Origin: Bacteroidota bacterium
GTDB lineage: Bacteria > Bacteroidota > Bacteroidia > JAFLBG01
Direction of reading: 5' to 3'
NCBI GenBank assembly: GCA_017303975.1
Contig: JAFLBG010000028.1
Span: 1-46,563, forward strand
Length of the DNA: 46,563 nucleotides
Shown here: positions 21,065-40,026 of the stretch, one piece after another
Layout of the letters: each line of letters starts with the position of its first letter
Numbering within the stretch: the stretch's first letter is position 1
Made by a program: the position numbers and the translations under genes
The notes under the pieces: model-generated
What the model saw: the letters and a program-made list of their open reading frames with translations, nothing else
Told to the model about the DNA's origin: nothing
The model's database searches: none

Positions 21065-22351
21065 TTACAAACTCCAATAAGTCAATCCTTTTATTTTACC
21101 TCTTAAAATTCCTTTAACATCAACCAATACTCCTCCTTTCCCTAAAATAGATTTAAAGTATTTTTCGTCCAGCTTTAAATATTCATTATGGTTTACCGCT
21201 AAAATAACTCCATCATACCCTTTACCCATTTTATTTAAACCAAAACCATACTCATGTTTTAACTCATCAGAATCAGCATGCGGGTCAACCACATCAACCT
21301 TTACACTGTATGATTTTAATTCTTTAATAATGTCCGCTACTTTCGAGTTTCTAATGTCGCTAACATTCTCTTTAAATGTAGCACCCATTACCAACACTTT
21401 TGATTTTGAAATATTTTTTCCTGCTGCAATAATCTTCTTTACTAAATTTTTTGCCACATATCCCCCCATTGAATCGTTTACGTAACGACCGGAATTTATA
21501 ATACGTGCATGATAACCCAAAGCTTCTGCTTTGTAGGTTAAATAATAGGGATCAACACCAATACAATGCCCCCCAACTAAGCCCGGGAAAAATTTAAGGA
21601 AATTCCATTTTGTTCCCGCAGCTTCCAACACATCAAATGTATTAATACCAATTCGGCTAAAAATAATAGACAACTCATTCATCAATGCAATATTCACATC
21701 ACGTTGTGTGTTTTCTATAATCTTAGCAGCCTCAGCAACTTTTATACTTGATGCACGATGTGTGCCAGGCTCTACAATAATCTCATACGTTTTTGCTATT
21801 ACATCCAAACTCTCAGCATCACATCCCGAAACAACTTTTAAAATTTTAGTAATGGTATGTTCCTTATCGCCCGGATTTATTCGCTCTGGAGAATACCCTA
21901 CTTTAAAATCTTTTTTAAATTTTAATCCCGATTCTTTTTCTAATACTGGAATACAATCTTCTTCTGTACAACCCGGATAAACAGTTGATTCGTACACCAC
22001 ATAATCTCCTTTTTTTAAGGCTTTACCAACACTAGTACTTGCTCCTACCAATGGTTTTAAATCAGGTAAGTTATGTTCGTCAATTGGAGTTGGAACTGCC
22101 ACAATAAAAAAGCGAGCCTTTCTTAATACATCAATCGAAGTTGTAAATGTAATATCACAACCCTCAAAATCTTTTTTACTAAGCTCGTTACTTGGATCTA
22201 TGCCTTTTTTCATCATATCAACACGTTTTTGGTTGATATCGAATCCTATTACTTTTACTTTTTTTGCAAAAGCCAACGCAATTGGCAACCCTACATAACC
22301 TAACCCAATAACAGCAATTGGAGCTTTTTTATTTAAAATTTCTTGATACAT
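21065..22351 (-). CDS. tviB: UDP-N-acetylhexosamine 6-dehydrogenase (TviB/WbpO-type nucleotide sugar dehydrogenase)
   Basis: A 428-aa cytosolic enzyme that oxidises the C6 hydroxyl of a UDP-hexosamine twice, using NAD, to give a UDP-uronic acid for surface polysaccharide. The N-terminal Rossmann loop is IGLGYVGLP (residues 15-23). VAVPTPID, VYESTVYPGCTEEDC, GYSPERINPGDKEH and EAAKIIENTQRDVNIALMNE are hallmarks of the UDP-GlcNAc/GalNAc branch. The catalytic cysteine lies in LVGGHCIGVDPYYLT, and the C-terminal domain has GATFKENVSDIRNSKV. Upstream on the same strand is a WbpB-like dehydrogenase, which would fit a UDP-2,3-diamino- or UDP-HexNAcA pathway. A -7 box at 22399 suggests it also has its own promoter. 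The exact sugar (Glc versus Gal series) is uncertain. Confidence 0.92.
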   Translation of the reverse strand: MYQEILNKKAPIAVIGLGYVGLPIALAFAKKVKVIGFDINQKRVDMMKKGIDPSNELSKKDFEGCDITFTTSIDVLRKARFFIVAVPTPIDEHNLPDLKPLVGASTSVGKALKKGDYVVYESTVYPGCTEEDCIPVLEKESGLKFKKDFKVGYSPERINPGDKEHTITKILKVVSGCDAESLDVIAKTYEIIVEPGTHRASSIKVAEAAKIIENTQRDVNIALMNELSIIFSRIGINTFDVLEAAGTKWNFLKFFPGLVGGHCIGVDPYYLTYKAEALGYHARIINSGRYVNDSMGGYVAKNLVKKIIAAGKNISKSKVLVMGATFKENVSDIRNSKVADIIKELKSYSVKVDVVDPHADSDELKHEYGFGLNKMGKGYDGVILAVNHNEYLKLDEKYFKSILGKGGVLVDVKGILRGKIKGLTYWSL

Positions 22352-22398: not shown

Positions 22399-22406
22399 CA
22401 AATATA
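22399..22406 (-). promoter_or_regulatory. Putative -7 box for the nucleotide sugar dehydrogenase
   Basis: The minus strand reads TATATTTG, an exact TAnnTTTG match, 47 bases before the ATG and just after the stop of the upstream gene. No clear -33 TTG is seen. Confidence 0.4.
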
Positions 22407-22410
22407 AAAA

Positions 22411-23439
22411 TTATGATTTACGATTGGGGCTTCTTAGCGCATAAATACGTTCAATTATATCAACAACTTTCAGTCCTTCTAAAGCATTCGTAGTAATGGT
22501 TGTTCTGCCTTTTAAGGTATCAACCACATTTTCTACAATATAATGGTGGTTATTAGCAGATCCTTTATATGCTCCATAATCATTTGCAGGATTTGTTGGA
22601 GCTAATTCAGGCATTGTATAATTTTTTATATGACAATATTCTACTTTATCCATATACTGTCCACCCACTTTCACGCTACCGTTGCTACCAACAATAGTCA
22701 AACTACTTTCTAAATTGGTGTCCCAAACAGCTGTAGAGTAATTAATACAGCCCATTCCGCCATTTATAAATTTGAAATTTACAAAGCCGGAATCTTCAAA
22801 CTCTGTAAGTGTTTGGTGGTTAAAATCATTAAACTTTGCTTGAATCTCAGTTATATCTCCAAATAGCCAATACAAAATATCAATAAAATGAGAAAACTGA
22901 GTAAATAAAGTTCCTCCATCCAATGTTTGCAAGCCTTTCCAGCCTCCTTTTTTGTAATAACGATCGTCACGATTCCAATAGCAATTTAACTGAACCATAT
23001 ACACATCGCCAATAGCTTTGCTCTCCACTACCTCTTTAAGCCAAGCAGATGGAGGAGAATACCTGTTTTGCATTACACAGAAAACCTGCTTGTGCATTTG
23101 CAATGATTTATATATAACAGCTTCACAATCTGATTTTGAGAGTGCCATTGGTTTCTCGCAAACAACATGTTTTCCTGCCTCTAGTGCTTTAAGTGCATGC
23201 TGCGCATGTAACCCATTTGGACTACAAATATTTACAACTTCTACCTCCGGATGGTTATGCAACATTTCATCTACAGAAGTATAATACTTCTCTGTTAGAT
23301 TCGTTAATCCAAGCTGTTCCTTCGGTAAAACATCACAAACAGCCACCAACTCTGTGTTTGGATTTCGTCTTACCATTTCGGCATGTCTTTTCCCGATATG
23401 TCCTTGTCCAATAATTGAAAATTTAATTTTAGTACTCAT
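22411..23439 (-). CDS. Gfo/Idh/MocA oxidoreductase, WbpB-like (UDP-N-acetylglucosaminuronate 3-dehydrogenase family)
   Basis: From the start I favour (ATG 23437-23439) the protein is 342 aa and opens MSTKIKFSIIGQGHIGKRHAE, with the NAD loop GQGHIG close to the N-terminus as in the family. A longer frame reaches 23541, but a -7 box at 23468-23475 would place the transcript start inside it. CEKPMA holds the family lysine, and the second domain has NCYWNRDDRYYKKGGW, GGTLFTQFSHFIDILYWLFG and the ending TTNALEGLKVVDIIERIY, which strongly resemble WbpB. WbpB oxidises position 3 of UDP-GlcNAcA as the first step to amino-sugar uronates in O-antigen. The aminotransferase and acetyltransferase partners are not in the window. 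Confidence 0.85.
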   Translation of the reverse strand: MSTKIKFSIIGQGHIGKRHAEMVRRNPNTELVAVCDVLPKEQLGLTNLTEKYYTSVDEMLHNHPEVEVVNICSPNGLHAQHALKALEAGKHVVCEKPMALSKSDCEAVIYKSLQMHKQVFCVMQNRYSPPSAWLKEVVESKAIGDVYMVQLNCYWNRDDRYYKKGGWKGLQTLDGGTLFTQFSHFIDILYWLFGDITEIQAKFNDFNHQTLTEFEDSGFVNFKFINGGMGCINYSTAVWDTNLESSLTIVGSNGSVKVGGQYMDKVEYCHIKNYTMPELAPTNPANDYGAYKGSANNHHYIVENVVDTLKGRTTITTNALEGLKVVDIIERIYALRSPNRKS

Positions 23440-23467
23440 CGTGTTTGTATTAACCATTTTAGACATG

Positions 23468-23475
23468 CAAATGTA
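23468..23475 (-). promoter_or_regulatory. -7 box for the WbpB-like gene (decides its start)
   Basis: The minus strand reads TACATTTG, an exact TAnnTTTG match. Transcription would begin near 23462, inside the longest open frame, so translation should start at 23439 (or 23457). Confidence 0.5.
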
Positions 23476-23519
23476 TAATTTATGATGTATAAATCTAAAA
23501 TATATTAGGTATAATATAG

Positions 23520-23527
23520 TACCTTTG
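23520..23527 (+). promoter_or_regulatory. -7 box for mgtE
   Basis: TACCTTTG is an exact TAnnTTTG match, 29 bases before the mgtE ATG. It forms a divergent promoter pair with the box at 23468 on the other strand. No clear -33 TTG. Confidence 0.5.
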
Positions 23528-23556
23528 CATTTGTACCCCAACTAAGGTATATTTCA

Positions 23557-24958: not shown

Positions 24959-25891
24959 ATGAAAATTTTATTTATTGACAGCACGGATAATTTACTTGTA
25001 CAACTTCTATCTGAGCAAGGCCATACACTCGAGCATGACTACGTATCCACAAAAAAAGAAATAGAACAAAAACTCCATTTGTTTGATGGCATTGTAATTC
25101 GCAGTCGTTTTAAAATTGACAAGCAGATTATTGATAGTGCTACGAATTTAAAATTTATAGCACGTGTAGGCTCCGGCATGGAAAACATTGATGTTGCTTA
25201 TGCAGAAGAGAAAAACATAAAATGTTTGCACGCCCCCGAAGGAAACTGCGATGCAGTAGCTGAGCACGCTATTGGAATGCTATTGTGTCTCTTCAACAAT
25301 TTAATTGCGGCCAATAACGAATCAAAACAAGGTATTTGGAAGCGCGAAGAAAATAGAGGATTAGAAATTGGAGGAAAAACAATTGGATTAATTGGTTATG
25401 GGAATGTTGGAAAAGCAATAGCAAAAAAACTAAGTGGCTTTGATGTGAGAATCATGGTGTACGACAAATACCTAAAAAATTTTAGTACTGAATTTGTTAC
25501 AGAAAGTAACATGCAAGAACTTTATAAAGAATGTGATATTGTATCGTTACATATTCCACTTAGCCAAGAAACGCAATATCTAGCGAACGATTCATTTTTT
25601 AAGGCATTTACTAAAAACATCTATTTTATTAATACCTCCCGCGGAAAGATAGTAAACACAGCTGATTTAGTACATAATTTAAAGTCAGGAAAAATTAAAG
25701 GTGCTTGTTTGGATGTACTAGAATATGAAACATCGTCCTTTGAACAAGTTGAATTAACTGACCTACCCTCTCCTTTTCAATATTTAATGAAATCGTACAA
25801 TGTGGTCATGAGCCCACATATTGCAGGATGGACACACGAAAGCAACACAAAGATGTCAAAAATTTTGGCAGAGAAAATTTCGAAAATCTAA
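24959..25891 (+). CDS. D-isomer-specific 2-hydroxyacid dehydrogenase (phosphoglycerate dehydrogenase-like)
   Basis: A 310-aa NAD-dependent dehydrogenase. The cofactor loop GYGNVG is at residues 146-151, inside GGKTIGLIGYGNVGKAIA. The catalytic triad is visible: Arg in INTSRGKIVN, Glu in LDVLEYE, and His in MSPHIAGWT. RVGSGMENID in the N-terminal domain also fits the family. The short form without an ACT domain resembles SerA-type phosphoglycerate dehydrogenases, but glyoxylate/hydroxypyruvate or lactate substrates cannot be excluded. It starts 7 bases after mgtE, likely as the second gene of that transcript. Its stop overlaps the stop of the convergent 66-aa gene by three bases. Confidence 0.9.
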   Translation: MKILFIDSTDNLLVQLLSEQGHTLEHDYVSTKKEIEQKLHLFDGIVIRSRFKIDKQIIDSATNLKFIARVGSGMENIDVAYAEEKNIKCLHAPEGNCDAVAEHAIGMLLCLFNNLIAANNESKQGIWKREENRGLEIGGKTIGLIGYGNVGKAIAKKLSGFDVRIMVYDKYLKNFSTEFVTESNMQELYKECDIVSLHIPLSQETQYLANDSFFKAFTKNIYFINTSRGKIVNTADLVHNLKSGKIKGACLDVLEYETSSFEQVELTDLPSPFQYLMKSYNVVMSPHIAGWTHESNTKMSKILAEKISKI

Positions 25892-26088
25892 ATTTGTTTT
25901 TCTTTTTTTTGTGAATAAGCAAAGTACAGCGTTCCCAAAACAGCTAAAATGTATAGGTGGTCGCTCAGCGGAACAGCACATGGTGGCGTTGGACAAGGCG
26001 GTGGTGGTGGTGGTCCTTGTGCGAACAAAGAACTACTTGCTACAACAAACAAAGACAATACCGTTATTTTAAATTTATCGAATATCAT
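25888..26088 (-). CDS. Small exported proline-rich protein with one C-terminal membrane helix
   Basis: A 66-aa protein. Residues 1-23 are a signal peptide (ITVLSLFVVASSSLFAQ), followed by a short proline/cysteine stretch GPPPPPPCPTPPC, then AVPLSDHLYILAVLGTLYFAY, a hydrophobic helix, and a basic end SQKKEKQI. The layout (signal, Pro-rich linker, P-x-S/D, helix, lysines) recalls the small sorting-tag-like proteins found beside surface protein genes in Bacteroidota, although I know of no assigned function. Its ATG lies inside the last codons of the 2254-aa gene (14-base overlap), which strongly suggests coupled translation. The overlap, the signal peptide and the helix argue that it is real despite its size. 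Confidence 0.7.
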   Translation of the reverse strand: MIFDKFKITVLSLFVVASSSLFAQGPPPPPPCPTPPCAVPLSDHLYILAVLGTLYFAYSQKKEKQI

Positions 26089-29000
26089 ATAGCATTATTT
26101 TTTTGTGTATAGTATTTTCCGATGTTTCTATTTGAATAATATAAACCCCATCATCTAATCCACTTACCCTTAGCTGTGCGTTTTTCAACGGCTTTAGGTA
26201 GTTAATCATTTTTACCTCTTGACCTAATTCATTTATCAACCTAATCCTTGTTACAATTTCATCTGTTGTTTCTACCATCAAAGTATTTGAAGCATTCACG
26301 TATATTTTAAATTCGGCCTCATCAATTAATTTTAAAGAGGTATTACTTAAATTAAAAACAACAACAGTTGCACTGGCTGTATCTGCGCATCCATAGGTGT
26401 TTTGAGCAATCATATCTAAAATAAAGGTCCCTGCTGTAGAATAAGAATAAACAGGAAGGCTATCTAAGCTAACATTTCCATCGCCAAAACTCCATGAATA
26501 AGTAGAGGCATTTAACGATGTATTTGCAATATGCAATTGAGCTTGTCCGTTTTGCAAATAAAGAGTATCATTTTGCAACTGAAAATTTGCACGTACCATA
26601 TTTGTGTCTGCATCAATTTTATAGGTTGCTGTATCTACGCACCCTGCAGCATCCGTAATCCAAACAGAGTAATTTCCACTAGACAAATTATTTATTTTAT
26701 TAGTTGTTTCTTGATTACTCCACAAATAGGTGTAAGGCGAAGTTCCGCCCACAACACTAAGTTCTATCTTACCATTGGAAACCCCGGCACAAGAGGCATT
26801 TACCAACATGGCAGATTTTGACAAAAGTGTAGGAGCTGTTATTTGCGTAGAATCTATAAAACTTCCGCATACACTATCTGTATTTTGAGTATAAATAAAA
26901 TAAGTACCCGCATACAAACCGCTAGCTGTATCTGCTGCAGTAAAATTTGAGTTAGCATACACAATATTGTTCGCACTATCTTTTATAGTAACATTCCAAC
27001 TACCAGAGTATTGTGGCAGAAGAGCTATTGCTCCATTTGCTGAATTCGAGCAAGAAAGATTCGTAGTTTCCTGTCTTGCAGGCGGAGGTAAGAAATGAAT
27101 TAAAAATCTTTTTACCGGATTGGGGGTTGTTGACAATGAAAAACTATATGTAGAATCCTGTACTAAATTCTTACGTACACCAGTAACTAAATCTTCTAGC
27201 ATAACGCATGTATTGTCGTCCGGAAGATTAAGCGCTTTTCTTTTCAAGGTATAAATTCCATTTACGCCTGCTTTTACATACATAGCTATGGTTCTTTGCT
27301 TTGTAGAATCAGAAAATGTATTTATGCAGGTTTGAACAAGATCTGCTGTTTCTGAGCTTAGATAAGGCGTTGTGGGATTTCCACTTGCTATTTTTAGTGC
27401 ATCAAACAAACTATCGTTATTATCGGTTGCTCCTTGCTTAAAGCGAATGAGCGTTTCGTCATAGTAGGAATTTTGATTGTTTGTCAATTTGAATTGAAGC
27501 ACATACGGGATTACAGTATTTTGCTTCCAAAACTGTGTAGCCGGATTGCTACCGGTTTTCACGCTTTCCGTCATGCTCAATACAGGACTTGCACCTGAAG
27601 TTTTCACCATAAATGCTTGGCTTGACGGAATAATATTTGTAGCCCCATTTACGCCCGGTCCTCCAACAGGATATGTTGCGTAATTTTGAGATGCATCGTT
27701 CCAGTAATATACAGTGTTACCTTGTATATTAGTTCTTGTCCATCCACTTCCAGCATCCCAATCTATCGCACTTGGATATGGATTACTTACTAAATTCCAT
27801 CCATCATCCGCATGGCTACTCGAGTTATATGTTACAGGAAGACTAATATTTCCTTTATTTGGAGTACCAGTCAAATCAAGAGTTACAGGAATATTGGTAG
27901 AATAAAAATAAACCGCATACCCTTTACCTACTACCATGGCATCTGTAACATTGCTAGGAATAGTCCATCCATTTGCAAAAGCGCCTGCAACCGACTCACT
28001 GTAAGAATAAACATTGCACCAATAAGAAGGCTGCGTTGTACCGGGAAATCCATCCATTCGCAATTCCGGAGTTAAGCCTCCAAGTGTTGCATTACTAATT
28101 GCAGAACCTACATATCTATATCCTTGTGCACCTGACACGTATCGTTGCATGGTAATATTTCCAGAAAAATTAGCAGGAGTACCAAGGGTTCCAATTGATG
28201 CCGTTCTGCTGGAGGAAGACAATAATGTAAATTGATTATTGGTGTTAAATGTTCCGGTACCGGACAGTGTAAACACATTAAGTAATCGTTGCGCTGTAGA
28301 TAAACTTACCGCTGCCCCGGAAGAAACTGTCATATTATAAAAATCTGCAGTAGCACTTCCTGAAATTGTTTGAGCACTACTTCCATTAAAAACAACGGTA
28401 CTTGTACCTGATGTAAATGTTCCTGAGTTAGACCAGTTACCAGCAAGGTTAATAGTATTAGAGCCTGCGGAAAGCGTGCTATTAGAGTTAATTGTTAAAT
28501 CTGTATTTACTGTAATATTGCTGCCTAATGTCTTTGTTCCTGCTCCACTAAAAGTAATATTATTAAACGTCTCTCCTCCTGTTTTAGTAATACTTTGAGA
28601 AAGTGTTCCTGTAAAAACAACCGTTCCAAATCGAGGTGTAAACGCACCACTATTGTCCCAGTTTCCTGCAACATTCAAAGCATAATTAGAAGAGCTTACA
28701 TCTAAGGTTCCACTAGTAATGGCAAGACTACCATTTAACGTGGCAGTTCCACCTAGTGTTTTTACAGCAGCCCCTGAAACGCCTAAATGATGGTAAGTTA
28801 TGCCCCTGATAGTTTGTGCGGAAGATGCTGTATAATTTACTGTATTGCCCGATGCAGATGCATCAATGCCTGTAAGCGTAAAGCTTGTTGCGCCAATATT
28901 TAAAACCGAATTTGTACTGTTAGTTAAAGTGCTCGAACCAGCTAAAGTTCCAGTAACACTAAGAGTCCCAGTGTTGGTCGCAGTTGCGTTTACAGTTAGT

Positions 29001-32000
29001 TTTGCTAATGATCCATTTCCACTGATTGTTTGCCCTGCAGTTGTTTGTAGTAAAATGCCAACTGACGAACTTGAGAGTGTGGAGTTGAGTGTTAAGCCAC
29101 CTGTACTTGTAAGAACACCTGCAACAGAACCAATGATATTTCCAGTTGAACTTATTACAATTCCTCCTGTACCCACATTGGTTGTATTTGGTGCAGTCCA
29201 ATTTGCAATTCCATTAATGGTTAATTTTGTACAAGCACCAGGATTAGCGTTCATCGTTACGGTATGAGTTGCAGCAATCTCTACGTAATCTCCAGCAACA
29301 GGCGCTACACCACCAACCCAAGTTCCACCAGCAGTCCAGTTACCTGATGTGGTACTCACAATCGTAGCACGCACAACCACAGGTAATGTAACTATTTCAT
29401 TTGCGCCACACAATCTAGTAACGTTAACGCTTACGCTGGCTGTAGGAGTTGCGGTTCCCCAATTAACGGTAATAGCATTGGAAGTTCCTCCGCTTGCTTG
29501 TGTCCCACCTGTTATTGTCCAATTGTATGTATAACCCGGAACATTAGTAACCGAATAAGATACGCCAGATTGTAAACTTGCTACAGAAGCCAATCCGGTA
29601 ATAGTAGATGTTGGAATTGGATTTATATTTACAGTAGAAGTAACTGCTGTGTTATTATCTCCACAATCGTTTTGCTCTACCACTTGCACGTATCCTATCA
29701 TTCCAGTTCCACCCCAATTAACGGTTATAGAATTAGTAGTGCCACCACTTGCTTGTGTACCACCGGTAATCGACCATGTATAAATATTCCCTGGAGTATT
29801 TGTAACGGAATAAGCTACTCCTAATGTACTTGTACACACTGATGTTAAGCCTGTAATAGAGGAAACATTAAATGCAGAACAAGCAGCACTACCCAGAGCA
29901 AATTGAGCCGAGAGTCCACTAAGTGCGCTTCGCTTAGCTATTGGGCTAGTTGCCGCTACATGCGTCCCGTTCATAGACCACGGATTTCCAGAAGTCGTTC
30001 TATATAAAATTCGAGTGGATGGTTTAATGGTATAACTTGTAAATCCTGTACCGGTAAGCTCTAAGGCATAATTTGTACTTGCTAATCCATCTGCTGCCGT
30101 TAAATCCCAGTATCCTTCTGTAAATTGATTTGCGATACTAAAACCTCCATCTGAAATTGGTAAGCCACTTGCACCTGGATTTGTAGAAACAAACTCAGTG
30201 GTAAGAGAACCATTTGTTAAATTTGTAAAAGTAAGTTGTGCTTTTCGATTGTATGATGCTGTTCCAACAGGAAATACAATAGCTACACCGGTTGCGTTTA
30301 TCCAGCGTTTAAACTTTCCTACAATGGTTCCTGCGGTATAATTAAATGTACCCACAGAAGCCGTACTAGTTCCAACTGTTAGCGTATTCGACCCACAAGA
30401 AACAATTCCGGCTGTTTGCGTAAGAATATTTGTTACACCAACATTATTATTTAGCACTAAACTACCTGCCGATTTATTTAATGTAAGATTATAAAACGTT
30501 TCCCCACCTGATTTTGTAAGATTCTGTGTGCCTGTACCATTGAATGTGACTGTACCAGTGCCTGGGGTAAAAGTGCCACTATTAGACCAATGCCTGCCAA
30601 GTGTGAATGCAAAATTATTTGCATTAAAAGCTCCGGAGCTAATTGTAAAATCATTAAAAACCGTTAATGCAGAAGCTAGTTGTGCTGTTGCATTTGAACT
30701 ATTCACAACTAAATTAGCTAATGAAACGGCCGAATTTATTTGAATTGTTTGTGATACGGGAGTTGACGCATTGCCAATTTGAAGTGTACCATCTGTAACA
30801 TTTAGTATTCCGTCAGAAGCTAAAAACCCTAAATTTGTTGCACCGGATTGCTGAATAACAATAGTTCCTCCCGACATAGTAAATATAGAACCAACTACAT
30901 CCATCTGAAATGGCGCAAGTGCAGCCGTTGTCGAACCTATTGTTGGCACAGTAAGAGTACCTCCGGACATTAGAAAGGTGGTAATAGTAACATTGTTAAC
31001 CCTATCTAATCGACCTGCAATATTCAATGCACCTCCTGTTATCTCTAGGGACCCTCCATAGGAAGTAATGTTTTCATTTATTGCATCACCCACGTTAACA
31101 GTGCCGGAACTTACTTTTATTCCTCCATAAAGAGATATTGTACCTAAACAATTTACAGTTGCAGTAGAACTATTAATCCAAAAACCTCCCGTTGTAGGCA
31201 CGGCAGCAGCTCCAGAAAAAGGCGTTACCGTTAATGAACTAACAGTAGATAATTTAAATGTGCCATTTGTTATCGTAAGAAAATTTGAGGCCGCGGAAAA
31301 ATTAGTACTTGTAATATCTAAAATATTATTGGCAGAAGTTCCCATATTCGTTGTGATACGGTTGAAGTTACTTGTTCCTCCACTACCACTGATACTCTGA
31401 CTTCCATTTTTACTGAAAGTAATATTTGCCAAACTGTTTCCATCGGTAGCCATATTTACAGTACCACTATTTACAATATCCCCAGATAAATTTATTACAT
31501 GAGTTGTGTTAGAAGCTGTATTCACATCAAAAGTTGCACCAGAGCTTACTGTTATATCACCTGTAACCGTAATAGTTCGTATTGTGGTATTATTTCCAAT
31601 TCTCAAAACTCCACTAGTACCTTGACCAACAGTAAGATTAAAACACGAGGCATTTGAATTTATAGTTACCGTATGCCCATCAGCAATTGTAACATTATCA
31701 ACAGAAGTAGGTACTGTACCTGAACTCCAAGTAGCTCCTGAATTCCAGTTTCCGGATACAGTAGAGGTAATAGTACCTGCATTAAGTGTTGCTTGATTGC
31801 CTGATAATTCGGCACTAACAGCACCTTCTGTTACTGCATATACTTTCCAATAGTAAGTGGTGCTTGGCAACAATCCTGTTTGAGCAGATGTTGTGGCATT
31901 GGCTGCGGTTCGAGTAATATATGTATATGTAACATCGTCCTCTGAACGGTAAATAGCATAGCCAACTTCATTGGTAGCCCAATTAGTCCAATTTAAAGTC

Positions 32001-32839
32001 ATTCCTGCATTTGTAACTCCGGTGAATGTAAGTGAACCAGACGGAGCTGCGGGTGTAGAAGGAGTAAAAGTAAGTTTAGAGTCTGAAGCAGGAATGGTTG
32101 CAAGCGTATGTGTTTCACCGTTATTAAAGGTAGCGGTATTGGCCGTTTGTTGCGCATTTAGCTGAGCCAACGTGGCAGTACCACTTACTGTGGCTGCATT
32201 TATACCACAACTATATGACCATCCTGCAGTACCCGGAGTCATCGTTCCATATACAAATTCAATTACACCTGATGTTTCGTATAACTTTACCTGAAAATTA
32301 AGATCGGGTGTTGTATTGCCATATACTGCCATATTAATCCACTCTACCGTTAAAACTCTATTAGGGGTAGAACCGCTTACTTCATATTTTATACTACTAC
32401 CTAACGGATCGCCACCACCTTGTGTGGTCATATCATCATACATGGGTGCAAGTGCCAACAGTGTACCTCCAGAACCGGGGGTAGTACCCGCACCTGAAAA
32501 TTGTGTATTATCATATCCATAGGCACCGGTTGTAGGACCACCATCTGCTGTTGATGAAGAAAAATCTATGTAGCCATTTGTAGATACATTAAACTGAGTA
32601 TATCTAGTCCCGTTATACCAAAAATCAAAGCCAATATTTGTCAGGTTACTTCTATTATCATCTTGACTAAAACCACCAACATATCGCCAACTACTTACCG
32701 GGGTACCAGTTGAGGCAATAGAGGTATAACTTATTCCTGTACTTCTAGTTACGGTATATGTTGCAAGGCTTTGAGTGTAACCAGATATAGAGATTACAGA
32801 AAAAAGTACGACTACTATTTTATAAATAACCTTTGTCAT
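26075..32839 (-). CDS. Giant T9SS-exported surface protein (2254 aa) with FN3, PKD-like, SprB-like and PKD domains
   Basis: A signal peptide (residues 1-22) is followed by a beta domain to about 255 (DFWYNGTRYTQFNVSTNGYIDF), resembling a nidogen- or lectin-like head. One fibronectin type III domain lies at about 262-347. Then comes a long Ser/Thr/Gly/Asn-rich beta-helix-like body with modules opening GNWNSGATW...GTVPTSVDNVTI (357) and GNWTAGGTW (1160). Two PKD-like domains lie near 992-1050 and 1077-1134 (YTWSITGGTQASGGT, YNWTITGGTQASGGT). From about residue 1495 the protein is paralogous to its upstream neighbour. The end holds a SprB-like repeat (CAGVSNGKIELSVVGGTSPYTY), a PKD domain near 2100-2157 (YSWSFGDGN), and a T9SS sorting domain (2170-2254) with a weak YPNP segment. 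It is an adhesin- or gliding-type surface protein by inference. It starts 5 bases after the previous gene. Confidence 0.88.
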   Translation of the reverse strand: MTKVIYKIVVVLFSVISISGYTQSLATYTVTRSTGISYTSIASTGTPVSSWRYVGGFSQDDNRSNLTNIGFDFWYNGTRYTQFNVSTNGYIDFSSSTADGGPTTGAYGYDNTQFSGAGTTPGSGGTLLALAPMYDDMTTQGGGDPLGSSIKYEVSGSTPNRVLTVEWINMAVYGNTTPDLNFQVKLYETSGVIEFVYGTMTPGTAGWSYSCGINAATVSGTATLAQLNAQQTANTATFNNGETHTLATIPASDSKLTFTPSTPAAPSGSLTFTGVTNAGMTLNWTNWATNEVGYAIYRSEDDVTYTYITRTAANATTSAQTGLLPSTTYYWKVYAVTEGAVSAELSGNQATLNAGTITSTVSGNWNSGATWSSGTVPTSVDNVTIADGHTVTINSNASCFNLTVGQGTSGVLRIGNNTTIRTITVTGDITVSSGATFDVNTASNTTHVINLSGDIVNSGTVNMATDGNSLANITFSKNGSQSISGSGGTSNFNRITTNMGTSANNILDITSTNFSAASNFLTITNGTFKLSTVSSLTVTPFSGAAAVPTTGGFWINSSTATVNCLGTISLYGGIKVSSGTVNVGDAINENITSYGGSLEITGGALNIAGRLDRVNNVTITTFLMSGGTLTVPTIGSTTAALAPFQMDVVGSIFTMSGGTIVIQQSGATNLGFLASDGILNVTDGTLQIGNASTPVSQTIQINSAVSLANLVVNSSNATAQLASALTVFNDFTISSGAFNANNFAFTLGRHWSNSGTFTPGTGTVTFNGTGTQNLTKSGGETFYNLTLNKSAGSLVLNNNVGVTNILTQTAGIVSCGSNTLTVGTSTASVGTFNYTAGTIVGKFKRWINATGVAIVFPVGTASYNRKAQLTFTNLTNGSLTTEFVSTNPGASGLPISDGGFSIANQFTEGYWDLTAADGLASTNYALELTGTGFTSYTIKPSTRILYRTTSGNPWSMNGTHVAATSPIAKRSALSGLSAQFALGSAACSAFNVSSITGLTSVCTSTLGVAYSVTNTPGNIYTWSITGGTQASGGTTNSITVNWGGTGMIGYVQVVEQNDCGDNNTAVTSTVNINPIPTSTITGLASVASLQSGVSYSVTNVPGYTYNWTITGGTQASGGTSNAITVNWGTATPTASVSVNVTRLCGANEIVTLPVVVRATIVSTTSGNWTAGGTWVGGVAPVAGDYVEIAATHTVTMNANPGACTKLTINGIANWTAPNTTNVGTGGIVISSTGNIIGSVAGVLTSTGGLTLNSTLSSSSVGILLQTTAGQTISGNGSLAKLTVNATATNTGTLSVTGTLAGSSTLTNSTNSVLNIGATSFTLTGIDASASGNTVNYTASSAQTIRGITYHHLGVSGAAVKTLGGTATLNGSLAITSGTLDVSSSNYALNVAGNWDNSGAFTPRFGTVVFTGTLSQSITKTGGETFNNITFSGAGTKTLGSNITVNTDLTINSNSTLSAGSNTINLAGNWSNSGTFTSGTSTVVFNGSSAQTISGSATADFYNMTVSSGAAVSLSTAQRLLNVFTLSGTGTFNTNNQFTLLSSSSRTASIGTLGTPANFSGNITMQRYVSGAQGYRYVGSAISNATLGGLTPELRMDGFPGTTQPSYWCNVYSYSESVAGAFANGWTIPSNVTDAMVVGKGYAVYFYSTNIPVTLDLTGTPNKGNISLPVTYNSSSHADDGWNLVSNPYPSAIDWDAGSGWTRTNIQGNTVYYWNDASQNYATYPVGGPGVNGATNIIPSSQAFMVKTSGASPVLSMTESVKTGSNPATQFWKQNTVIPYVLQFKLTNNQNSYYDETLIRFKQGATDNNDSLFDALKIASGNPTTPYLSSETADLVQTCINTFSDSTKQRTIAMYVKAGVNGIYTLKRKALNLPDDNTCVMLEDLVTGVRKNLVQDSTYSFSLSTTPNPVKRFLIHFLPPPARQETTNLSCSNSANGAIALLPQYSGSWNVTIKDSANNIVYANSNFTAADTASGLYAGTYFIYTQNTDSVCGSFIDSTQITAPTLLSKSAMLVNASCAGVSNGKIELSVVGGTSPYTYLWSNQETTNKINNLSSGNYSVWITDAAGCVDTATYKIDADTNMVRANFQLQNDTLYLQNGQAQLHIANTSLNASTYSWSFGDGNVSLDSLPVYSYSTAGTFILDMIAQNTYGCADTASATVVVFNLSNTSLKLIDEAEFKIYVNASNTLMVETTDEIVTRIRLINELGQEVKMINYLKPLKNAQLRVSGLDDGVYIIQIETSENTIHKKIMLYDIR
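26078..28395 (-). repeat. Paralogous C-terminal block, copy 1
   Basis: About 760 codons that match 32848-35180 in the neighbouring gene, from TADFYNMTV to the end. Identity looks highest in the middle, where long runs such as SNPYPSAIDWDAGSGW are the same in both, and falls toward both ends. Confidence 0.9.
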
Positions 32840-32844
32840 TTTAC

Positions 32845-35800
32845 CTATTCAATATATGTTTTTTTTGTAAATATTCTATTAGGTGTTTCTATTACCACCA
32901 TATAAAACCCTGTTGGAACGCGTGGAATATTGTACATGTACTCTCCTGATGTTTCTTTCGCAAATTCTTTTTCTATTACTTTTTGTCCAAGTAAATTTGT
33001 CAATTTAAAAGTACCACCATTTGCAAAAAGATTGCTAACATCAAAAAGAACAATTGATGAGTTGGTGGCACTAATTCTTAACTCATCTAGTGTATGGGCT
33101 GCATCTGTCTGCAAAATTTGTTGATTTAGTATTGTAATGATTTTTTCCAATGTGTCAGGACAACCACTATTGTCATAGGCTACGAGCCTTATGACATAAT
33201 TCCCTTGCTGATTATAAATGTGCAAAGGAATTGAATCTGTAGATTGAAATCCATCTCCAAAATCCCACATATAGTTTGAAGCATTTGCTGAATTATTAGT
33301 CAACTGCAGGTTAGCTTGCCCATTAACAAGTACTAATGTATCTTGCAATAAACTAAAATTTGCAAGAGTTAGGGTAGTATCTGCATTAATATAATAATTG
33401 AAGGTATCACGGCACATGTTGCTGTCAAAAACAATAACACTATAATTGCCTGCACTCAAATAGCTGATAGTACTTGTTGTTTCTTGATTGCTCCAAACAT
33501 AGGAATAGGGTATTGTTCCACCACCAACTGTTATAGAAACTGCACCGTTAGCTATTTCTGTGCACGATGCCTTTGTAAGTGTTTCTGAAACCTCCAGAGG
33601 CAACGCATCTACAAGTAATACGGTATCAATGCTCGCACCACAAACACTATTTGAATTGACAGAACTGATATAGTAACTGCCGGACGACAAATTCTTAATG
33701 GTATCGAGAGGCTGAGAGATTGAATTGTTTTGATAAACTATAGCATTTGTAGAGTCTCGGAGAGTTGTATTCCAAATACCTTGTTGCGAGGACGAAACAA
33801 CAATTGCCCCATTTGATTGGCCAAAACAAAGAGGTGCTATTGTAGCGTATGTTACCGGAGGCGGAATAATATGCAACATAAATCTTTTTACTGCGCTTAC
33901 AGAAGTATTTAATGAAAACATGTAAACACTATCATTATTCAAATTAATTTTTGAGCCTAGAATAAGGTCTTCTAGCACTACACAGTTTTTATTATCAGGT
34001 AAATTCATCAGCGTTTTTCTTAGTGTGTACGTTCCATTAACGCCCGCCTTTACATATATAGGAATTGAAAAGTATTGCAACGAGTCTGAATAGGTGTTAA
34101 TACAAACCTGCACAGAATCGTCTGTCTCTGTACTTAAATAAGGAGTGCTAGGATTGCCGCTTGCTATTTTTAAAGCATCAAACAAGCTATCGTTATTATC
34201 AGTAGCTCCTTGTTTAAAACGAATCAATGTTTCATCAAAATAATTATTCTGATTATTGGTTAATTTCAACTGAATTGCAAATGGCTGATTCATGTTTTGT
34301 TTCCAAAACTGGGTAGAAGGATTTGTATTTGTTTTAACACTCTCTGTCATATCCAAAACAGGGCTTGCAGCTGAAGCCTTTACCATAAATCCTTGTCCAG
34401 AGGGAATAACATTAGAACCTCCATTTATTCCTGGACCACCTAACGGATACGTTGCATAATTCTGTGCAGCATCATTCCAATAATAAATTGTGTTGCCTTG
34501 AATATTTGTTCTTGTCCATCCACTGCCGGCATCCCAATCAATAGCGCTAGGATATGGATTACTAACTAAGTTCCATCCATCGTCTGCGTGAGGAGTTGAA
34601 TTGTATGTTACAGGCAAACTAATTGGGCCTTTGTTCGGAGTACCTGTTAAATCTAGCGTTACAGGTATATTCGTAGAGTAAAAGTAAATTGCGTATCCTT
34701 TGCCAGGTATCATGGCATCGCTTATATCACTAGGAATAGTCCATCCATTTGAAAAACTACCTGATGCCGCTTCGTTATATGTATACACATTGCACCACCA
34801 TCCGGGAGCTGTTGCACCAGGAAATCCATCCATTCGTATTTCAGGTGTTAAGCCGGCCAGAGTGGCATTGCTTATAGGAGCTGAAACATATCTGTATCCT
34901 TGTGCTCCTGATACATAACGCTGCATCGTTATATCCCCGGAAAAATTAGCTGGTGTTCCCAAAGCAGCAATACCGGCTGTTCTGGAAGCACTTGAAAGCA
35001 ATGTTAAAAAATTATTTGTCGTAAATAGTCCGGTTCCACTCAAGGTAAGTTCGTTTACTAATCGCTGTGCGCTAGACAGACTAACACTTGCGCCATTAGC
35101 AACAGTTATATTATAAAAATCTGTTTGTGTTCCACTGATTGCTTGCGCTACACTTCCATTAAAATTTAAGGTGGATGAATTTGTTGTAGCATCAATAGTT
35201 GCGCTACCTGCCACTGAAAAATTGCCTGCAATGTTTGTTGTTCCTGTTAACAGTGTTTTTACACCGGCATTAGAAACCGACAAATTGTGGTAACTTATTT
35301 GTGCGATACTTTGAGCTCCACTTCCGTTGTAAACAATAGATGTTGAATTTGCAGTAGCATTAGCTGCGGCAGTACCGGTAACTGTGAACGTGCTAGCTAT
35401 ATTAGTGGTTCCGGCTGCAATTGTCTTAGTTCCTGCATTCGAAAAAATTAAATCATTATAAGAAGTATTCCTTACTATTTGCGCGCCACTACCATTATAA
35501 TCAAATGTGCCTGTGCCACAAGTAAATGTACCTGTTTGTGTGTTGTTTCCGCCTAAATTAATTCTGCCTGTACTTGTTGATAATCTTCCTGCACCACTTA
35601 GTGTTCCGGTTACACTAAGAGTATTGGTAGTAATACCAAATGTGGTATTAGTTGCTCCTAATACCAAATTACCTAAAACAGAAGTAAGAGTTCCTGTAGG
35701 AGCTTTAGTTACCGTAGAAGTGCCACCGCTTACTGTCAGGTTTCCATAATTGGGAGTAGATGATATTGACTGCGAAGCTGTATTAGATTGATATGTAACT

Positions 35801-37683
35801 GTACTGGTTGCATTCAAACTAATATTAGCAGTTGTAAAATTGGTTGGAAAACTAACTGCAGTTGCAGATGCTGTTGTTCCTAGAGTAAGTATAGTACTCG
35901 CAGCCATTGACATTATACCCGTTGCATTACCCGTTATTTGAAACGTACTACTACCAAGTGTTCCTCCAGAAATGGTTAAGTTCCCATTTACAGCTGTAGC
36001 AGCACCAATTGTAGAGGTGCCGGCATTGCTAATAATTAAATGATGATAGGTTGTACCTCGTACCGTTTGTGTTCCGCTACTCGTATATTCAAACGTTCCT
36101 GTACCGCAAGTAAAAGTACCCGTTTGGGTATTATTCCCTCCCAAATTAATTCTTCCGGTAGTTGTTGATAATCTACCAGCCCCACTTAGTGTACCTGTTA
36201 TACTAAGTGTATTTGTACCAACAGCAAAAGTAGTATTAGCAGTACCCAATACCAAATTTCTTGTCACGGTGGTTAAGGCTCCACTAGGAGATTTACTTAT
36301 AACGGTTACTCCACCACTAACCGTTAAGTTTCCATAGGTAGGAGTAGATGAAATAACTTGTGCAGCAGTATTTGCTTGATAGGTAACAGTACTGGTACTA
36401 CTTAAACTGATATTTGCTGTAGTAAAATTAGTTGGAAAACTAACCGCAGTTGCCGAAGCCGTTGTGCCCAAAGTAAGAGCGGTACTAGCTGCCATAGACA
36501 TTATTCCAGTTGCGTTGCCTGTTATTTGAAACGTACTGCTGGCAAGTGTTCCTCCGGAAATAGTTAAATTGCCATTGACAATCGTTGCGGCTCCAATGGT
36601 AGAGGTACCCGAATTACTTATAATTAAATTATGATATGTTGTACCTCTTACCGTTTGATTGCCTGCCCTATTGTAATTAACAGTTCCTGTACCGCAAGTA
36701 AATGTGCCAGTATGTGTATTGTTATTTCCAATATTCAATTGCCCTGTTGTAAAAGACAACCCACCTGCTCCACTTAGTCTTCCTGTTACACTAAGCGTAT
36801 TTGTTGCTACTGCAAATGTTGTATTGGCTGTCCCCAAGCTTAAATTACCTAGAACGGTTGTTGTTGTGCCTGTTGGCGATTTACTAATAACAGAAGCACC
36901 TCCGCTTACAATTAAATTTCCATAACTAATTGTTGATAGTATAGCTTGTGTTGCCGTATTGGCCTGATAAGTAACAGTACTGGTAGCACTTAATGAAATA
37001 TTGCCAACAGCAAAATTAGTTGGGAATGGCACATTCGTTGCAGAAGCCGTTGAGCCCAATCTTAATGTAGTACCCGCAGCCAAGGATAATAAGCCTGTGG
37101 CATTACCAATAAGCAGAAACGCATTTGTTTGCAAAATGCCAGTTGTAAGTGTAAGATTATTATTGATTGTAGTATTTACACCGAGACTAACGCTTCTAGA
37201 TGTTGAATTAATTATAAGATTGTAATATGCGGCAATTGCAGAAGGAAGAGTTGTGTTTGCAGCTGTGTTGTTCCAATGAATCGTACCAGTACCCGGAGTA
37301 AATGTTTGATTGGTTGTGGTCCAAGAAGTTCTAATTTGTAAAGTTCCTCCATTTGTCATGTTAATGGAACTACCAGCTGTAGAAGATGAAACAGCAGTAA
37401 CATTTAAAGTATTTGTTCCTGCTGCAGGCCAAACTAAAGAGCCTACGCCACCAAACCCAACATTAAGTGTTCCGTACGCTAAATTTGCTGCTCCTGCATC
37501 AAGAGTACACGTACCAACAATTCTAATGTTGTCAGCCGCAATCGGCAATGTAGTTAAATCCCATTTGCTGGGGTCGCTAAAATTTCCAGGACCGGTAAAT
37601 GTTTTATTGGCAGAATACCCCACCCCTCCACTCAAGAGGCAGAGAATAAAGATAAGACAGCCGATAAAATATTTTTTGCTCAT
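32845..37683 (-). CDS. Giant T9SS-exported surface protein (1612 aa) with in-frame 196-aa tandem repeats
   Basis: Residues 1-25 form a signal peptide (GCLIFILCLLSGGVGYSA). Residues of about 26-170 open with TGPGNFSDPSKWDL, a module like those in the 2254-aa neighbour. Residues of about 172-750 hold near-identical tandem repeats of 196 aa (588 bp), each with VTYQANTA, YGNLTVSGG, TGTFTCGTGT and FQITGNATGIMSMAAST. From about 852 to the end it shares the C-terminal block with the 2254-aa protein: MQRYVSGAQGYRYV, SNPYPSAIDWDAG, a SprB-like repeat (GGTIPYSYVWSNQETT, near 1365-1430), a PKD domain (YMWDFGDGFQ, near 1458-1518), and a T9SS sorting domain (1532-1612, FKLTNLLGQKV, TGFYMVVIET). The beta-rich, Thr/Ser/Asn-rich composition fits a long extracellular fibre. 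It lies 33 bases after the tyrosine kinase gene. Confidence 0.88.
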   Translation of the reverse strand: MSKKYFIGCLIFILCLLSGGVGYSANKTFTGPGNFSDPSKWDLTTLPIAADNIRIVGTCTLDAGAANLAYGTLNVGFGGVGSLVWPAAGTNTLNVTAVSSSTAGSSINMTNGGTLQIRTSWTTTNQTFTPGTGTIHWNNTAANTTLPSAIAAYYNLIINSTSRSVSLGVNTTINNNLTLTTGILQTNAFLLIGNATGLLSLAAGTTLRLGSTASATNVPFPTNFAVGNISLSATSTVTYQANTATQAILSTISYGNLIVSGGASVISKSPTGTTTTVLGNLSLGTANTTFAVATNTLSVTGRLSGAGGLSFTTGQLNIGNNNTHTGTFTCGTGTVNYNRAGNQTVRGTTYHNLIISNSGTSTIGAATIVNGNLTISGGTLASSTFQITGNATGIMSMAASTALTLGTTASATAVSFPTNFTTANISLSSTSTVTYQANTAAQVISSTPTYGNLTVSGGVTVISKSPSGALTTVTRNLVLGTANTTFAVGTNTLSITGTLSGAGRLSTTTGRINLGGNNTQTGTFTCGTGTFEYTSSGTQTVRGTTYHHLIISNAGTSTIGAATAVNGNLTISGGTLGSSTFQITGNATGIMSMAASTILTLGTTASATAVSFPTNFTTANISLNATSTVTYQSNTASQSISSTPNYGNLTVSGGTSTVTKAPTGTLTSVLGNLVLGATNTTFGITTNTLSVTGTLSGAGRLSTSTGRINLGGNNTQTGTFTCGTGTFDYNGSGAQIVRNTSYNDLIFSNAGTKTIAAGTTNIASTFTVTGTAAANATANSTSIVYNGSGAQSIAQISYHNLSVSNAGVKTLLTGTTNIAGNFSVAGSATIDATTNSSTLNFNGSVAQAISGTQTDFYNITVANGASVSLSSAQRLVNELTLSGTGLFTTNNFLTLLSSASRTAGIAALGTPANFSGDITMQRYVSGAQGYRYVSAPISNATLAGLTPEIRMDGFPGATAPGWWCNVYTYNEAASGSFSNGWTIPSDISDAMIPGKGYAIYFYSTNIPVTLDLTGTPNKGPISLPVTYNSTPHADDGWNLVSNPYPSAIDWDAGSGWTRTNIQGNTIYYWNDAAQNYATYPLGGPGINGGSNVIPSGQGFMVKASAASPVLDMTESVKTNTNPSTQFWKQNMNQPFAIQLKLTNNQNNYFDETLIRFKQGATDNNDSLFDALKIASGNPSTPYLSTETDDSVQVCINTYSDSLQYFSIPIYVKAGVNGTYTLRKTLMNLPDNKNCVVLEDLILGSKINLNNDSVYMFSLNTSVSAVKRFMLHIIPPPVTYATIAPLCFGQSNGAIVVSSSQQGIWNTTLRDSTNAIVYQNNSISQPLDTIKNLSSGSYYISSVNSNSVCGASIDTVLLVDALPLEVSETLTKASCTEIANGAVSITVGGGTIPYSYVWSNQETTSTISYLSAGNYSVIVFDSNMCRDTFNYYINADTTLTLANFSLLQDTLVLVNGQANLQLTNNSANASNYMWDFGDGFQSTDSIPLHIYNQQGNYVIRLVAYDNSGCPDTLEKIITILNQQILQTDAAHTLDELRISATNSSIVLFDVSNLFANGGTFKLTNLLGQKVIEKEFAKETSGEYMYNIPRVPTGFYMVVIETPNRIFTKKTYIE
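32848..35180 (-). repeat. Paralogous C-terminal block, copy 2
   Basis: The partner of 26078-28395. The DNA itself is still similar in the core; for example the regions 34500-34600 and 27715-27815 differ only at scattered, mostly third-position bases. Confidence 0.9.
35430..37170 (-). repeat. 588-bp in-frame tandem repeat, about three copies
   Basis: Landmarks recur at an exact 588-base spacing: AAACGTACT at 35941 and 36529 with a diverged form (AAACGCATT) at 37117; TACCGTTTG at 36061 and 36649 with a diverged form at 35473; GTAACAGTACTGGT at 36383 and 36971 with a variant at 35795. Each unit encodes 196 residues, so the frame is kept. Confidence 0.92.
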
Positions 37684-37716
37684 TTCTCACAAATCAAAAT
37701 ATAGAATTAATATGCA

Positions 37717-40026
37717 CTACGAAGCGTATGCGTATTTGTAATTTTTGTAATACTTAGAATAATATTGTGTCTTCTTAACATTGGTTTTATTGAGAAGTAA
37801 ATAAATATTAAACTTATTTTCCTCTACAATTAGGTTTGCTTGCTTTATTGCCTCTTTATTAGAAACCACAGAGCTAAGTACAAAAACATTAATATCAGAA
37901 TGTTTCATTACAGATAACACCTCCGAAATTAGCCCGATAGGAGCGGTATCTAAAATTACATAATCGTAATTTTTTCTTGCGTACTCAATAATTTTTTCTG
38001 TTCTATCGCCAATCAAAAGTTCTGAGGCATTCTTAATTGGGGTAGTATTTAGCAACATATCAAATTTTCTATCGCCCTTAAGTATTGCCTTTGAAATATC
38101 AACATAATCATTGTAAACATTGGCAACTCCCTTCTCAATAGGAGTAGTAATAGAAAGCGATTTTACAATACTCGGATTGAACAAATCTAAATCTATCAAT
38201 AAAACTTTCTTGTTGCTTTTAGAAATAACCTCCGCTAAATTAATTGCAGAGAATGTTTTCCCCTCTCCAATCATGTGAGAGGTAACTAAAATTACTTTTG
38301 CCTTTTTCTTCGCTGGCATAAACTCTAACGATGTTCTAATGGAGCGTAAAAAGACCGAGGCAATTGGATTCTCCTCTGCATTAACAATGGTAGTAATTTT
38401 GTTTTTATCATATTTAATCATCGGAATTTCCCCTAAAATAGGAAGTTCTGTCTTTTCCTTTAATTCATCTATTGTTTTAATACCGGAAGTAAACAACATT
38501 TTCAAATAAACAAACAGCAAACTAATTCCCAACGCAACAAGAGCAAACTTGTAAATAATAGACCATCTTGAAGGTCCAGAAGATTCAACAATATGAGCTG
38601 ATTCAAACAACTTATACTCCGGAGCCATAGCTGCTTGAGAAACCAGTAATGTATTTTTTTTGTTTAGCAAATCCATATACATATTCTCGTTCATCTTCAT
38701 TTGTCGCTCCAAATCCATAATACGCAACTGCGTGCTTGTATATTTTTTTTCCAAAGGAGTTATTTCTGCAATTTGGTTTTCAACAAAAGCAATCTTTGCA
38801 TCGGTAGCAACCTTACTATCCTTTATGTATTTCAACAAATCACTTTTTCTATCTTCGTATCCTTTGTCAATGTGCGATATATTCTTGCTTTTATCAGTTA
38901 CATCAAATAAATAATCGCGTTTGTCTTTTTGCAGTTTTTGTAATTCTGCAAAAGCGTTTGCCAAAAATGCATCTTGTTGTTCATTAAAATAAGGAGGAGG
39001 CACAGTAACATCGGCCGATGATTTTAATGTCAAATAATTTTCAATTTCATTCAAGCCTAATCTTTTTTGTTGAAGGCGACTTTTTTCCAGTGTCAAACTA
39101 GTATAAACCGAAATATATTTTTGATCTTCAATAGATTCACTTATAACTAAATTACCTTGATTGTACTTGCGCAAACTATCTGCAATCTGCTGCAACGTAA
39201 TATCTGTACTCACCAAAAGTTTATCTATACCATAAACCATTTTGGTATTTCTTTCCAACTGCGTTTTAATGGTATTATTCAAATAATTTTTGGTAAGTGT
39301 ATCCAAAAACGAAACAGCCCTATTCGAAAGAAAATCGTTGTAAAACACCTGTAAAACACCTAAATCTTTGGTGAGGTTCGATTTTAAAGCACTTTGGTAT
39401 CTAGAAACTAATGTGTTTTTATTATGAAGTTTTACAATATACTTCTCCCCTTTTTTTAATAACGACTCTTTCCCTTTTGTTTTGTTGATATAAAGCTTAA
39501 AATCATTGGTAGAAAGTAAACTATCAAAAACACCCGCAGCTTCAATTTTGTTGGACGTACCTTGATATGATATAGAATATGAATTAGAATCTAAAATAGA
39601 TAATGCTATAGGCGTTTCATAAAACGATTCGGATACAACACCGGTAGTTACTTTAAAAGGTGAATTATTAAATACTTCTTCTGATGTATTGTCTTTTAAG
39701 GTAAAATAAGAAACATCTAAGTTTAAACTATTGATGGTTTTTATAATTAAATCGGGAGAATTAATCCCTGTCATTTCCTCAGAATAATCAGCATATTCTT
39801 TTTTGTTCTCAGGGTTGTATTTTAATGATATTTGAGCAAGGGCAGTGTAGCCTTTAAAAACAAATTTCTCGAAATAATAATAACCTACACCGGCACCAAG
39901 AATCACAAATACAATTGGCACATACCAATACTCTCTAACAATAGATAGAAGTTTGCCTAAATCCTTTGAGCTTATTATCCCATCCGAATTATGCACCCGA
40001 GACCCGTTATTTTTTTTAGACACCAT
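37717..40026 (-). CDS. Polysaccharide-type tyrosine autokinase (Wzc/BY-kinase with Wzz domain)
   Basis: A 769-aa inner-membrane protein. The first helix (about 34-51, YVPIVFVILGAGVGYYYF) is followed by a Wzz-type chain-length domain with a long periplasmic coiled-coil region (about 230-470) and a second helix (about 485-507). The cytosolic BY-kinase carries Walker A SHMIGEGKT (about 583-591), Walker A' VLLIDLDLFNPSI (about 608-620) and Walker B YVILDTAP (near 685). The C-terminus is a tyrosine cluster with seven Tyr in the last 15 residues (QYYSKYYKNYKYAYAS), the expected autophosphorylation tail. Such kinases control capsule or exopolysaccharide polymerisation and export. Here the genes that follow on the same strand are not glycosyltransferases or Wza but two giant T9SS surface proteins. 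It looks like the first gene of that operon. Confidence 0.93.
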   Translation of the reverse strand: MVSKKNNGSRVHNSDGIISSKDLGKLLSIVREYWYVPIVFVILGAGVGYYYFEKFVFKGYTALAQISLKYNPENKKEYADYSEEMTGINSPDLIIKTINSLNLDVSYFTLKDNTSEEVFNNSPFKVTTGVVSESFYETPIALSILDSNSYSISYQGTSNKIEAAGVFDSLLSTNDFKLYINKTKGKESLLKKGEKYIVKLHNKNTLVSRYQSALKSNLTKDLGVLQVFYNDFLSNRAVSFLDTLTKNYLNNTIKTQLERNTKMVYGIDKLLVSTDITLQQIADSLRKYNQGNLVISESIEDQKYISVYTSLTLEKSRLQQKRLGLNEIENYLTLKSSADVTVPPPYFNEQQDAFLANAFAELQKLQKDKRDYLFDVTDKSKNISHIDKGYEDRKSDLLKYIKDSKVATDAKIAFVENQIAEITPLEKKYTSTQLRIMDLERQMKMNENMYMDLLNKKNTLLVSQAAMAPEYKLFESAHIVESSGPSRWSIIYKFALVALGISLLFVYLKMLFTSGIKTIDELKEKTELPILGEIPMIKYDKNKITTIVNAEENPIASVFLRSIRTSLEFMPAKKKAKVILVTSHMIGEGKTFSAINLAEVISKSNKKVLLIDLDLFNPSIVKSLSITTPIEKGVANVYNDYVDISKAILKGDRKFDMLLNTTPIKNASELLIGDRTEKIIEYARKNYDYVILDTAPIGLISEVLSVMKHSDINVFVLSSVVSNKEAIKQANLIVEENKFNIYLLLNKTNVKKTQYYSKYYKNYKYAYAS

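Follow-up and report, generated by a model that had tools for sequence, protein, structure and literature searches.

Organization of the locus

The window analyzed here, namely the 46,563-nucleotide contig JAFLBG010000028.1 of a Bacteroidota bacterium (assembly GCA_017303975.1), carries a putative four-gene operon for a Wzc-type bacterial tyrosine kinase (BY-kinase), two giant proteins of the type IX secretion system (T9SS) type, and a 66-aa membrane-peptide precursor. The window is contig C28 of its own genome (hereafter G000), the assembly of which comprises 3.4 Mb in 70 contigs and is 99.8% complete. The features of the operon are listed below, where TAIL is the name given here to a region common to the giants.

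37717..40026, minus strand: Wzc-type BY-kinase, 769 aa (open reading frame [ORF], profile and structure matches, and tree)
32845..37683, minus strand: T9SS type A giant, 1612 aa (TAIL at approximately residues 832-1380, PKD domain, sorting domain 1549-1608)
33544..35193, minus strand: TAIL of the 1612-aa giant (a relative of the RemA/RemZ C-terminal region)
26075..32839, minus strand: T9SS type A giant, 2254 aa (fn3, G8, and PKD domains, TAIL, sorting domain 2179-2249)
26771..28420, minus strand: TAIL of the 2254-aa giant (72% identity to the TAIL of the neighboring giant)
25888..26088, minus strand: 66-aa peptide precursor, a diverged relative of PID-CTERM peptides

A sequence-only reading of this DNA had described four minus-strand genes separated by 33 bp and 5 bp and then overlapping by 14 bp, and the ORF coordinates agreed with it in every respect; all four reading frames were intact. 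Neither the exosortase XrtX, nor an XrtX-associated protein, nor a Wzm/Wzt exporter was found at the locus, and no Wza, Wzy/polymerase, glycosyltransferase, or Wzb gene adjoined the kinase. A scan for promoters of the Bacteroidota type 5' of the kinase gave no exact match, and tandem repeats at the DNA level were not found in the giants. A gene-order search with the arrangement of the window returned its own genome alone.

The kinase

The assignment of the first gene to the Wzc-type tyrosine autokinases was upheld by a partial match to the NCBIfam Wzc model (153.7 bits, under the equivalog cut-off) and by the closest solved structures, which were Wzc proteins, while TIGR03018, the tyrosine autokinase family of PEP-CTERM/EpsH systems, matched weakly. 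The protein displayed, in order, a weak Wzz-like periplasmic region, GNVR, an AAA_31 kinase domain, and a C-terminal tyrosine cluster YYSKYYKNYKYAYAS, the Wzz and GNVR scores falling under the Pfam cut-offs. The Walker A (GEGKT) and Walker B (ILDTAP) motifs were retained together with the tyrosine cluster. The Walker A' motif read DLDLFNP, not D[LMF][HR]K/RP, and did not conform to DxD[LMF][HR]; its basic residue (H or R), present in 45/45 other kinases compared, was lost in the window kinase alone.

G000 encodes three related kinases, of which those on contigs C54 and C20 are 32% and 24% identical to the window kinase. The C20 kinase adjoins a Wza-type exporter, the usual arrangement, and the window kinase fell outside its group. 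In the kinase tree, the window kinase formed one clade (support 100) with those of the genomes G005 and G088; this clade sat on a long branch nested among kinases linked to XrtX, with branch supports of 96-100 in the Shimodaira–Hasegawa-like approximate likelihood ratio test (SH-aLRT). Related kinases were also seen to bear long (YG)n tails.

The giants and their TAIL region

That both giants are of the T9SS-exported type was confirmed by TIGR04183, the model for type A sorting domains, on which they reached 30.4 and 25.1 bits against a cut-off of 23. The other hallmarks of type A cargo were likewise present, namely a signal peptide, recognized by eye only, and a T9SS in the genome, where the translocon protein SprA scored 2668.6 bits.

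In G000, TAIL was found in only three giants, the two of the window and one on C54, each lying next to the window or C54 kinase. The TAIL profile matched RemA and RemZ of Flavobacterium johnsoniae with E of about 3e-24. RemA is a gliding adhesin and RemZ its homologue, and in the RemZ structure the sorting domain alone was well resolved (PMC10994853). The AlphaFold model of TAIL was confident and mainly beta, with a predicted local distance difference test (pLDDT) score of 84.7, and a fold search with it gave no reliable match in the PDB. For the N-terminal part of the 1612-aa giant, the predicted fold was of unusable quality (pLDDT 51.7, with four sequences only), and Pfam identified no lectin domain in either window giant.

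The 2254-aa giant was 62.6% identical over 2246 columns to a giant of G088, its full-length orthologue, which exceeds the identity between the kinases; another full-length orthologue (2238 aa) was found in G005. The 1612-aa giant had no counterpart at the corresponding G005 and G088 loci, and sequence comparison indicates that it is an additional copy, the giant pair having been expanded in the window lineage.

The 66-aa precursor

The smallest product consists of a signal peptide, a QGPPPPPPCPTPPC segment, AVPLSDH, one transmembrane (TM) helix, and a KKEK tail. This layout resembles that of canonical PID-CTERM precursors, in which a signal peptide is followed by approximately 15-25 residues such as QPPPPGGPPCWPPPC, the motif [IV]P[IV]DGG, a TM helix, and a basic tail. 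The canonical precursors have a CWPPPC segment in common, and their predicted mature peptide is approximately 15-25 residues long. Were XrtX to cleave at the PID motif, the presumed cutting site of exosortases, the product would be a tiny Pro-rich peptide with two cysteines.

A profile built from eight canonical small proteins, with the window protein left out, detected the 66-aa protein at E 2.9e-8 and its G005 homologue at E 5.7e-10, and its matches across nearly ten thousand ORFs were confined to proteins at these loci. The score of the window peptide was equalled in 1/2000 segment-preserving shuffles and in 0/2000 full shuffles. The protein is 40% identical to the G005 homologue and shares with PID-CTERM-like proteins in the broad sense a signal peptide, a Pro/Cys segment, and a TM helix. 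Both cysteines were kept (CPTPPC), whereas PLSDH replaces PIDGG and no GG is present. These comparisons support the homology of the 66-aa protein to PID-CTERM peptides, as a diverged or degenerate relative, but not a working sorting signal. Exactly two PID-type peptides were found in G000, one on C54 and one in the window.

The end of the small-peptide gene overlaps that of a convergent D-2-hydroxyacid dehydrogenase gene by 4 bp (25888-25891), leaving no space for a terminator between them. In another genome, G027, a second genomic site (L185:9828-10016) encodes a short PID-type protein without the Cys segment, MPPSSTPIDGG.

An XrtX-centered module across the class

The window operon is not an isolated case, as homologues of its products belong to a module that is widespread in the class. 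Its parts are the BY-kinase subfamily, a T9SS giant with a RemA-like C-terminus, a PID-CTERM peptide of approximately 70 aa, XrtX, an XrtX-associated protein, and often Wzm/Wzt. XrtX was present in 194/395 genomes of the class and in none of 14 controls. Among 20 XrtX loci picked without regard to the kinase (stretches of up to 20 kb), 18 contained a PID-type peptide, 15 a kinase of this family, and 12 a TAIL giant. From the kinase side, XrtX lay in the same stretch in 16/24 genomes having a kinase match at E <= 1e-105.

The canonical locus of G000 lies on C54, where the kinase is divergent to a 1333-aa relative of the window giants, followed by the PID-CTERM peptide, XrtX, and a 162-aa protein related to the XrtX-associated protein, which matched the corresponding model under its curated cut-off. 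The exosortase, the single XrtX copy of the genome, scored 176.5 on the XrtX model (cut-off 170) versus 85.7 on the XrtF model (cut-off 90). Both this locus and the PID-CTERM kinship of the small protein had been missed in the sequence-only reading. Its proposal of a surface-fibre module with a tyrosine kinase, meanwhile, was strengthened by the kinase/TAIL-giant pairing repeated across many families and by the relationship of the giants' conserved region to RemA/RemZ.

The same pairing bears on a reading in which the kinase does no more than serve as Wzc for a capsule or exopolysaccharide whose genes lie far away, and the giants are its neighbors only by chance or for co-expression. Such a role would suit its Wzc domain order, the Wzm/Wzt exporters and glycan genes that adjoin related kinases, and the nucleotide-sugar genes nearby. 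However, the pairing with TAIL giants recurs in many families as well as in the window clade, and G000 already owns the Wza-linked kinase at C20. Chance adjacency is also very unlikely by a rough estimate, in which random placement of kinases and giants (few copies per 3.4 Mb, a rough assumed background) gave the counts of the 20 XrtX loci a probability below 1e-14. We thus regard this reading as improbable. The simpler candidate of a capsule kinase with unrelated neighbors was ruled out by the repeated kinase/giant pairing.

A Wzm-type ABC-2 exporter gene adjoined the kinase in 18/34 XrtX-adjacent kinase loci, usually followed by Wzt. The association of Wzc-type BY-kinases with Wzm/Wzt exporters where Wza was undetected (L066, L067, L071, L072, L102, L104, L154, and L159) is an unusual pairing for BY-kinases.

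Satellite loci in two other genomes

Kinases of the window clade (43% identity) were found in just two other genomes, the metagenome-assembled G005 and G088, both of one other family. A scan of genome contigs returned one real relative, the G088-type contig JAEUTS010000088.1, and two other matches that were remote kinases. In G005, the kinase is followed by the small protein and the 2238-aa giant, and the G088 order is likewise, across two contigs, whereas the order in the window is kinase, giant, giant, and small protein. The expected conservation among relatives therefore held for gene content and failed for gene order, and a fixed conserved four-gene order, considered as a candidate, was ruled out by this difference.

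The G005 and G088 small proteins share the variants of the window peptide, CPxPPC without W and DH instead of GG, and retain P[VI]DD. Both genomes encode a canonical PID peptide elsewhere, and XrtX was found in G005 away from this locus; no XrtX lay near any of the three loci, which we refer to as satellites. The G005 satellite was observed next to the gliding-motility gene gldG (L065:14886-16601).

Given the parts missing at the locus, the deviant Walker A' motif, the long kinase branch, and the stop codon in the G005 kinase, the operon could be viewed as a decaying duplicate, a module copy that lacks XrtX and exporter and is drifting from function. This view is hard to reconcile with the four intact frames of the window, the full-length conservation of the 2254-aa giant across families (62% identity to G088), and the expansion of the giant pair in the window lineage, and we consider it highly improbable.

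Proposed role of the operon

The kinase nests among XrtX-linked kinases, the small protein is PID-CTERM-related, and both giants carry TAIL; on these grounds, the operon was interpreted as a diverged paralogous satellite of the XrtX module. The sequence comparisons give good support to its satellite status and to each of the four products being homologous to a member of the module. That it serves as an accessory adhesin/glycan unit, working in trans together with the genome's XrtX, its T9SS, and its polysaccharide export, is, in our estimate, somewhat probable, with lower confidence in the XrtX step. In this mechanism, the giants would cross the outer membrane via the T9SS as adhesins held by their type A tails, and the kinase would act on a surface glycan, sensing or setting its chain length or its export. 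After insertion into the inner membrane, the small precursor would be cut in trans by XrtX, and the resulting Pro/Cys peptide of approximately 15-20 residues would be joined to glycan or lipid. Export and sorting would thereby be shared, and the contribution of the satellite would be additional adhesins that come with a dedicated regulator and peptide.

Several observations weigh against this interpretation. The NCBIfam PID_CTERM model (NF046080, 26 bits) gave no match to the window peptide (E up to 0.1), and a tail-only profile also missed it, so that XrtX may not process this peptide. XrtX was not found in G088, the genome of which is 85% complete. Only three satellite loci are available in all, from metagenome-assembled or draft genomes and with differing gene order; the G005 kinase contains an in-frame stop, and the G088 locus is divided over contigs. 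Moreover, the loss of the Walker A' basic pair suggests that the kinase activity of the window protein may be altered.

Part of these observations would also be accommodated by a satellite independent of XrtX, namely a self-contained kinase-adhesin unit in which the small protein remains uncleaved in the inner membrane and acts there as a partner for the kinase or for exporting the adhesins. The absence of XrtX near the satellites, the degenerate sorting tail of the window peptide (PLSDH without GG, under the PID_CTERM cut-off), and the long branch of the satellite kinases point in this direction. Nevertheless, the Cys-Pro segment and a P-hydrophobic motif ahead of the TM helix were retained, P[VI]DD was kept in the G005 and G088 homologues, and XrtX is encoded elsewhere in G000 and G005. 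The G005 homologue, which scored 12.4 bits on NF046080 (cut-off 26), was found by the tail-only model at E 3e-6. Independence from XrtX is thus judged unlikely, although less so than either of the alternatives weighed above.

Extending the in-trans interpretation to the phylum, we tentatively suggest, as a possibility that is itself doubtful, that in Bacteroidota one composite surface structure is built jointly by an exosortase, the T9SS, and a polysaccharide exporter under tyrosine-kinase control. XrtX would free a Pro-rich two-cysteine peptide (canonically QPPPP..PPCWPPPC) and attach it to glycan, RemA-like adhesins would be displayed alongside, and the window would provide a second specialized set using the same machinery in trans.

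Comparison with known systems

The operon shares with the XrtX/PID-CTERM set (NF046080, NF046081, and NF046082) the kinase subfamily, the TAIL giant, and a homologous Pro/Cys precursor with a C-terminal TM helix. It differs in having no exosortase (NF046081), associated protein, or exporter (the last being frequent, not universal, in that set), in the peptide tail PLSDH for PIDGG, which falls under the family cut-off, and in having two giants rather than one with all genes in the same direction. The PEP-CTERM/EpsH (XrtA) systems of Proteobacteria similarly place an exosortase target beside polysaccharide genes and have a dedicated tyrosine autokinase family (TIGR03018); however, their targets are larger proteins without a T9SS partner, and the window has neither a PEP-CTERM protein nor XrtA. 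XrtF of F. johnsoniae is also a Bacteroidota exosortase, but of a different family from XrtX; it is needed for surface colonization and biofilm, and its substrates are unknown (PMC10936215). The giants resemble RemA/RemZ in the homologous TAIL ahead of the sorting domain, and RemZ in the type A T9SS tail (PMC10994853), whereas their N-terminal parts differ and no lectin domain was found in them. The domain order of the kinase is that of Wza-Wzc capsule export and of P. gingivalis Ptk1 (PMC4082711), from which the window locus differs by having no Wza, Wzy, or Wzb.

Among open-access full texts, no paper with the term PID-CTERM was found, and none on XrtX, or on exosortase, T9SS, and tyrosine kinase together, describes the gene set. 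The sequence-only reading had put the operon forward as an undescribed system. This was correct only in part, as the kinase subfamily adjoins XrtX, PID-CTERM, and often Wzm/Wzt genes, parts that NCBIfam has already named. The components are catalogued piecewise, and their combination and the XrtX-less variant appear to be undescribed in the searched literature.

The recurring neighborhood suggests a link between two protein-sorting systems usually studied apart, the exosortase and the T9SS, and makes it testable. It supplies candidate partners for the exosortase (a very small peptide as substrate, an adhesin of the T9SS, a BY-kinase, and a polysaccharide exporter of the ABC type), which bear on the question of what Bacteroidota exosortases act on and what they are for. 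The satellite in turn allows one to ask if kinase, adhesins, and peptide can function when no exosortase is encoded beside them.

Neighboring genes

Nucleotide-sugar genes were identified at the following positions of the window.

22411..23541, minus strand: WlbA/WbpB-type Gfo/Idh/MocA dehydrogenase (possible, unproven link to the T9SS linking sugar)
21065..22351, minus strand: UDP-N-acetylglucosamine (UDP-GlcNAc) 6-dehydrogenase, TviB/WbpA type (profile matches)
1441-2490: GalE

The statement that polysaccharide genes are absent was accordingly borne out for polymerase, Wza, and exporter and contradicted by these two dehydrogenases and GalE. The dehydrogenases lie 2-5 kb downstream of the operon on the same strand, with two opposite-strand genes intervening. 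PDB entries 3q2i and 3q2k, labelled as dehydrogenase and oxidoreductase in the match table, are WlbA enzymes. The dehydrogenase pair (21065-23541) may take part in the synthesis of a 2,3-diamino uronic acid. In P. gingivalis, T9SS cargo is anchored by a sugar from the Wbp pathway (PMC7468200), and by analogy a link of the window dehydrogenases to the T9SS anchoring sugar is suggestive only. Positions 17786-20992 encode a 1068-aa protein that combines a two-component-regulator propeller, a Y_Y_Y domain, and a SpoIIE-type phosphatase.

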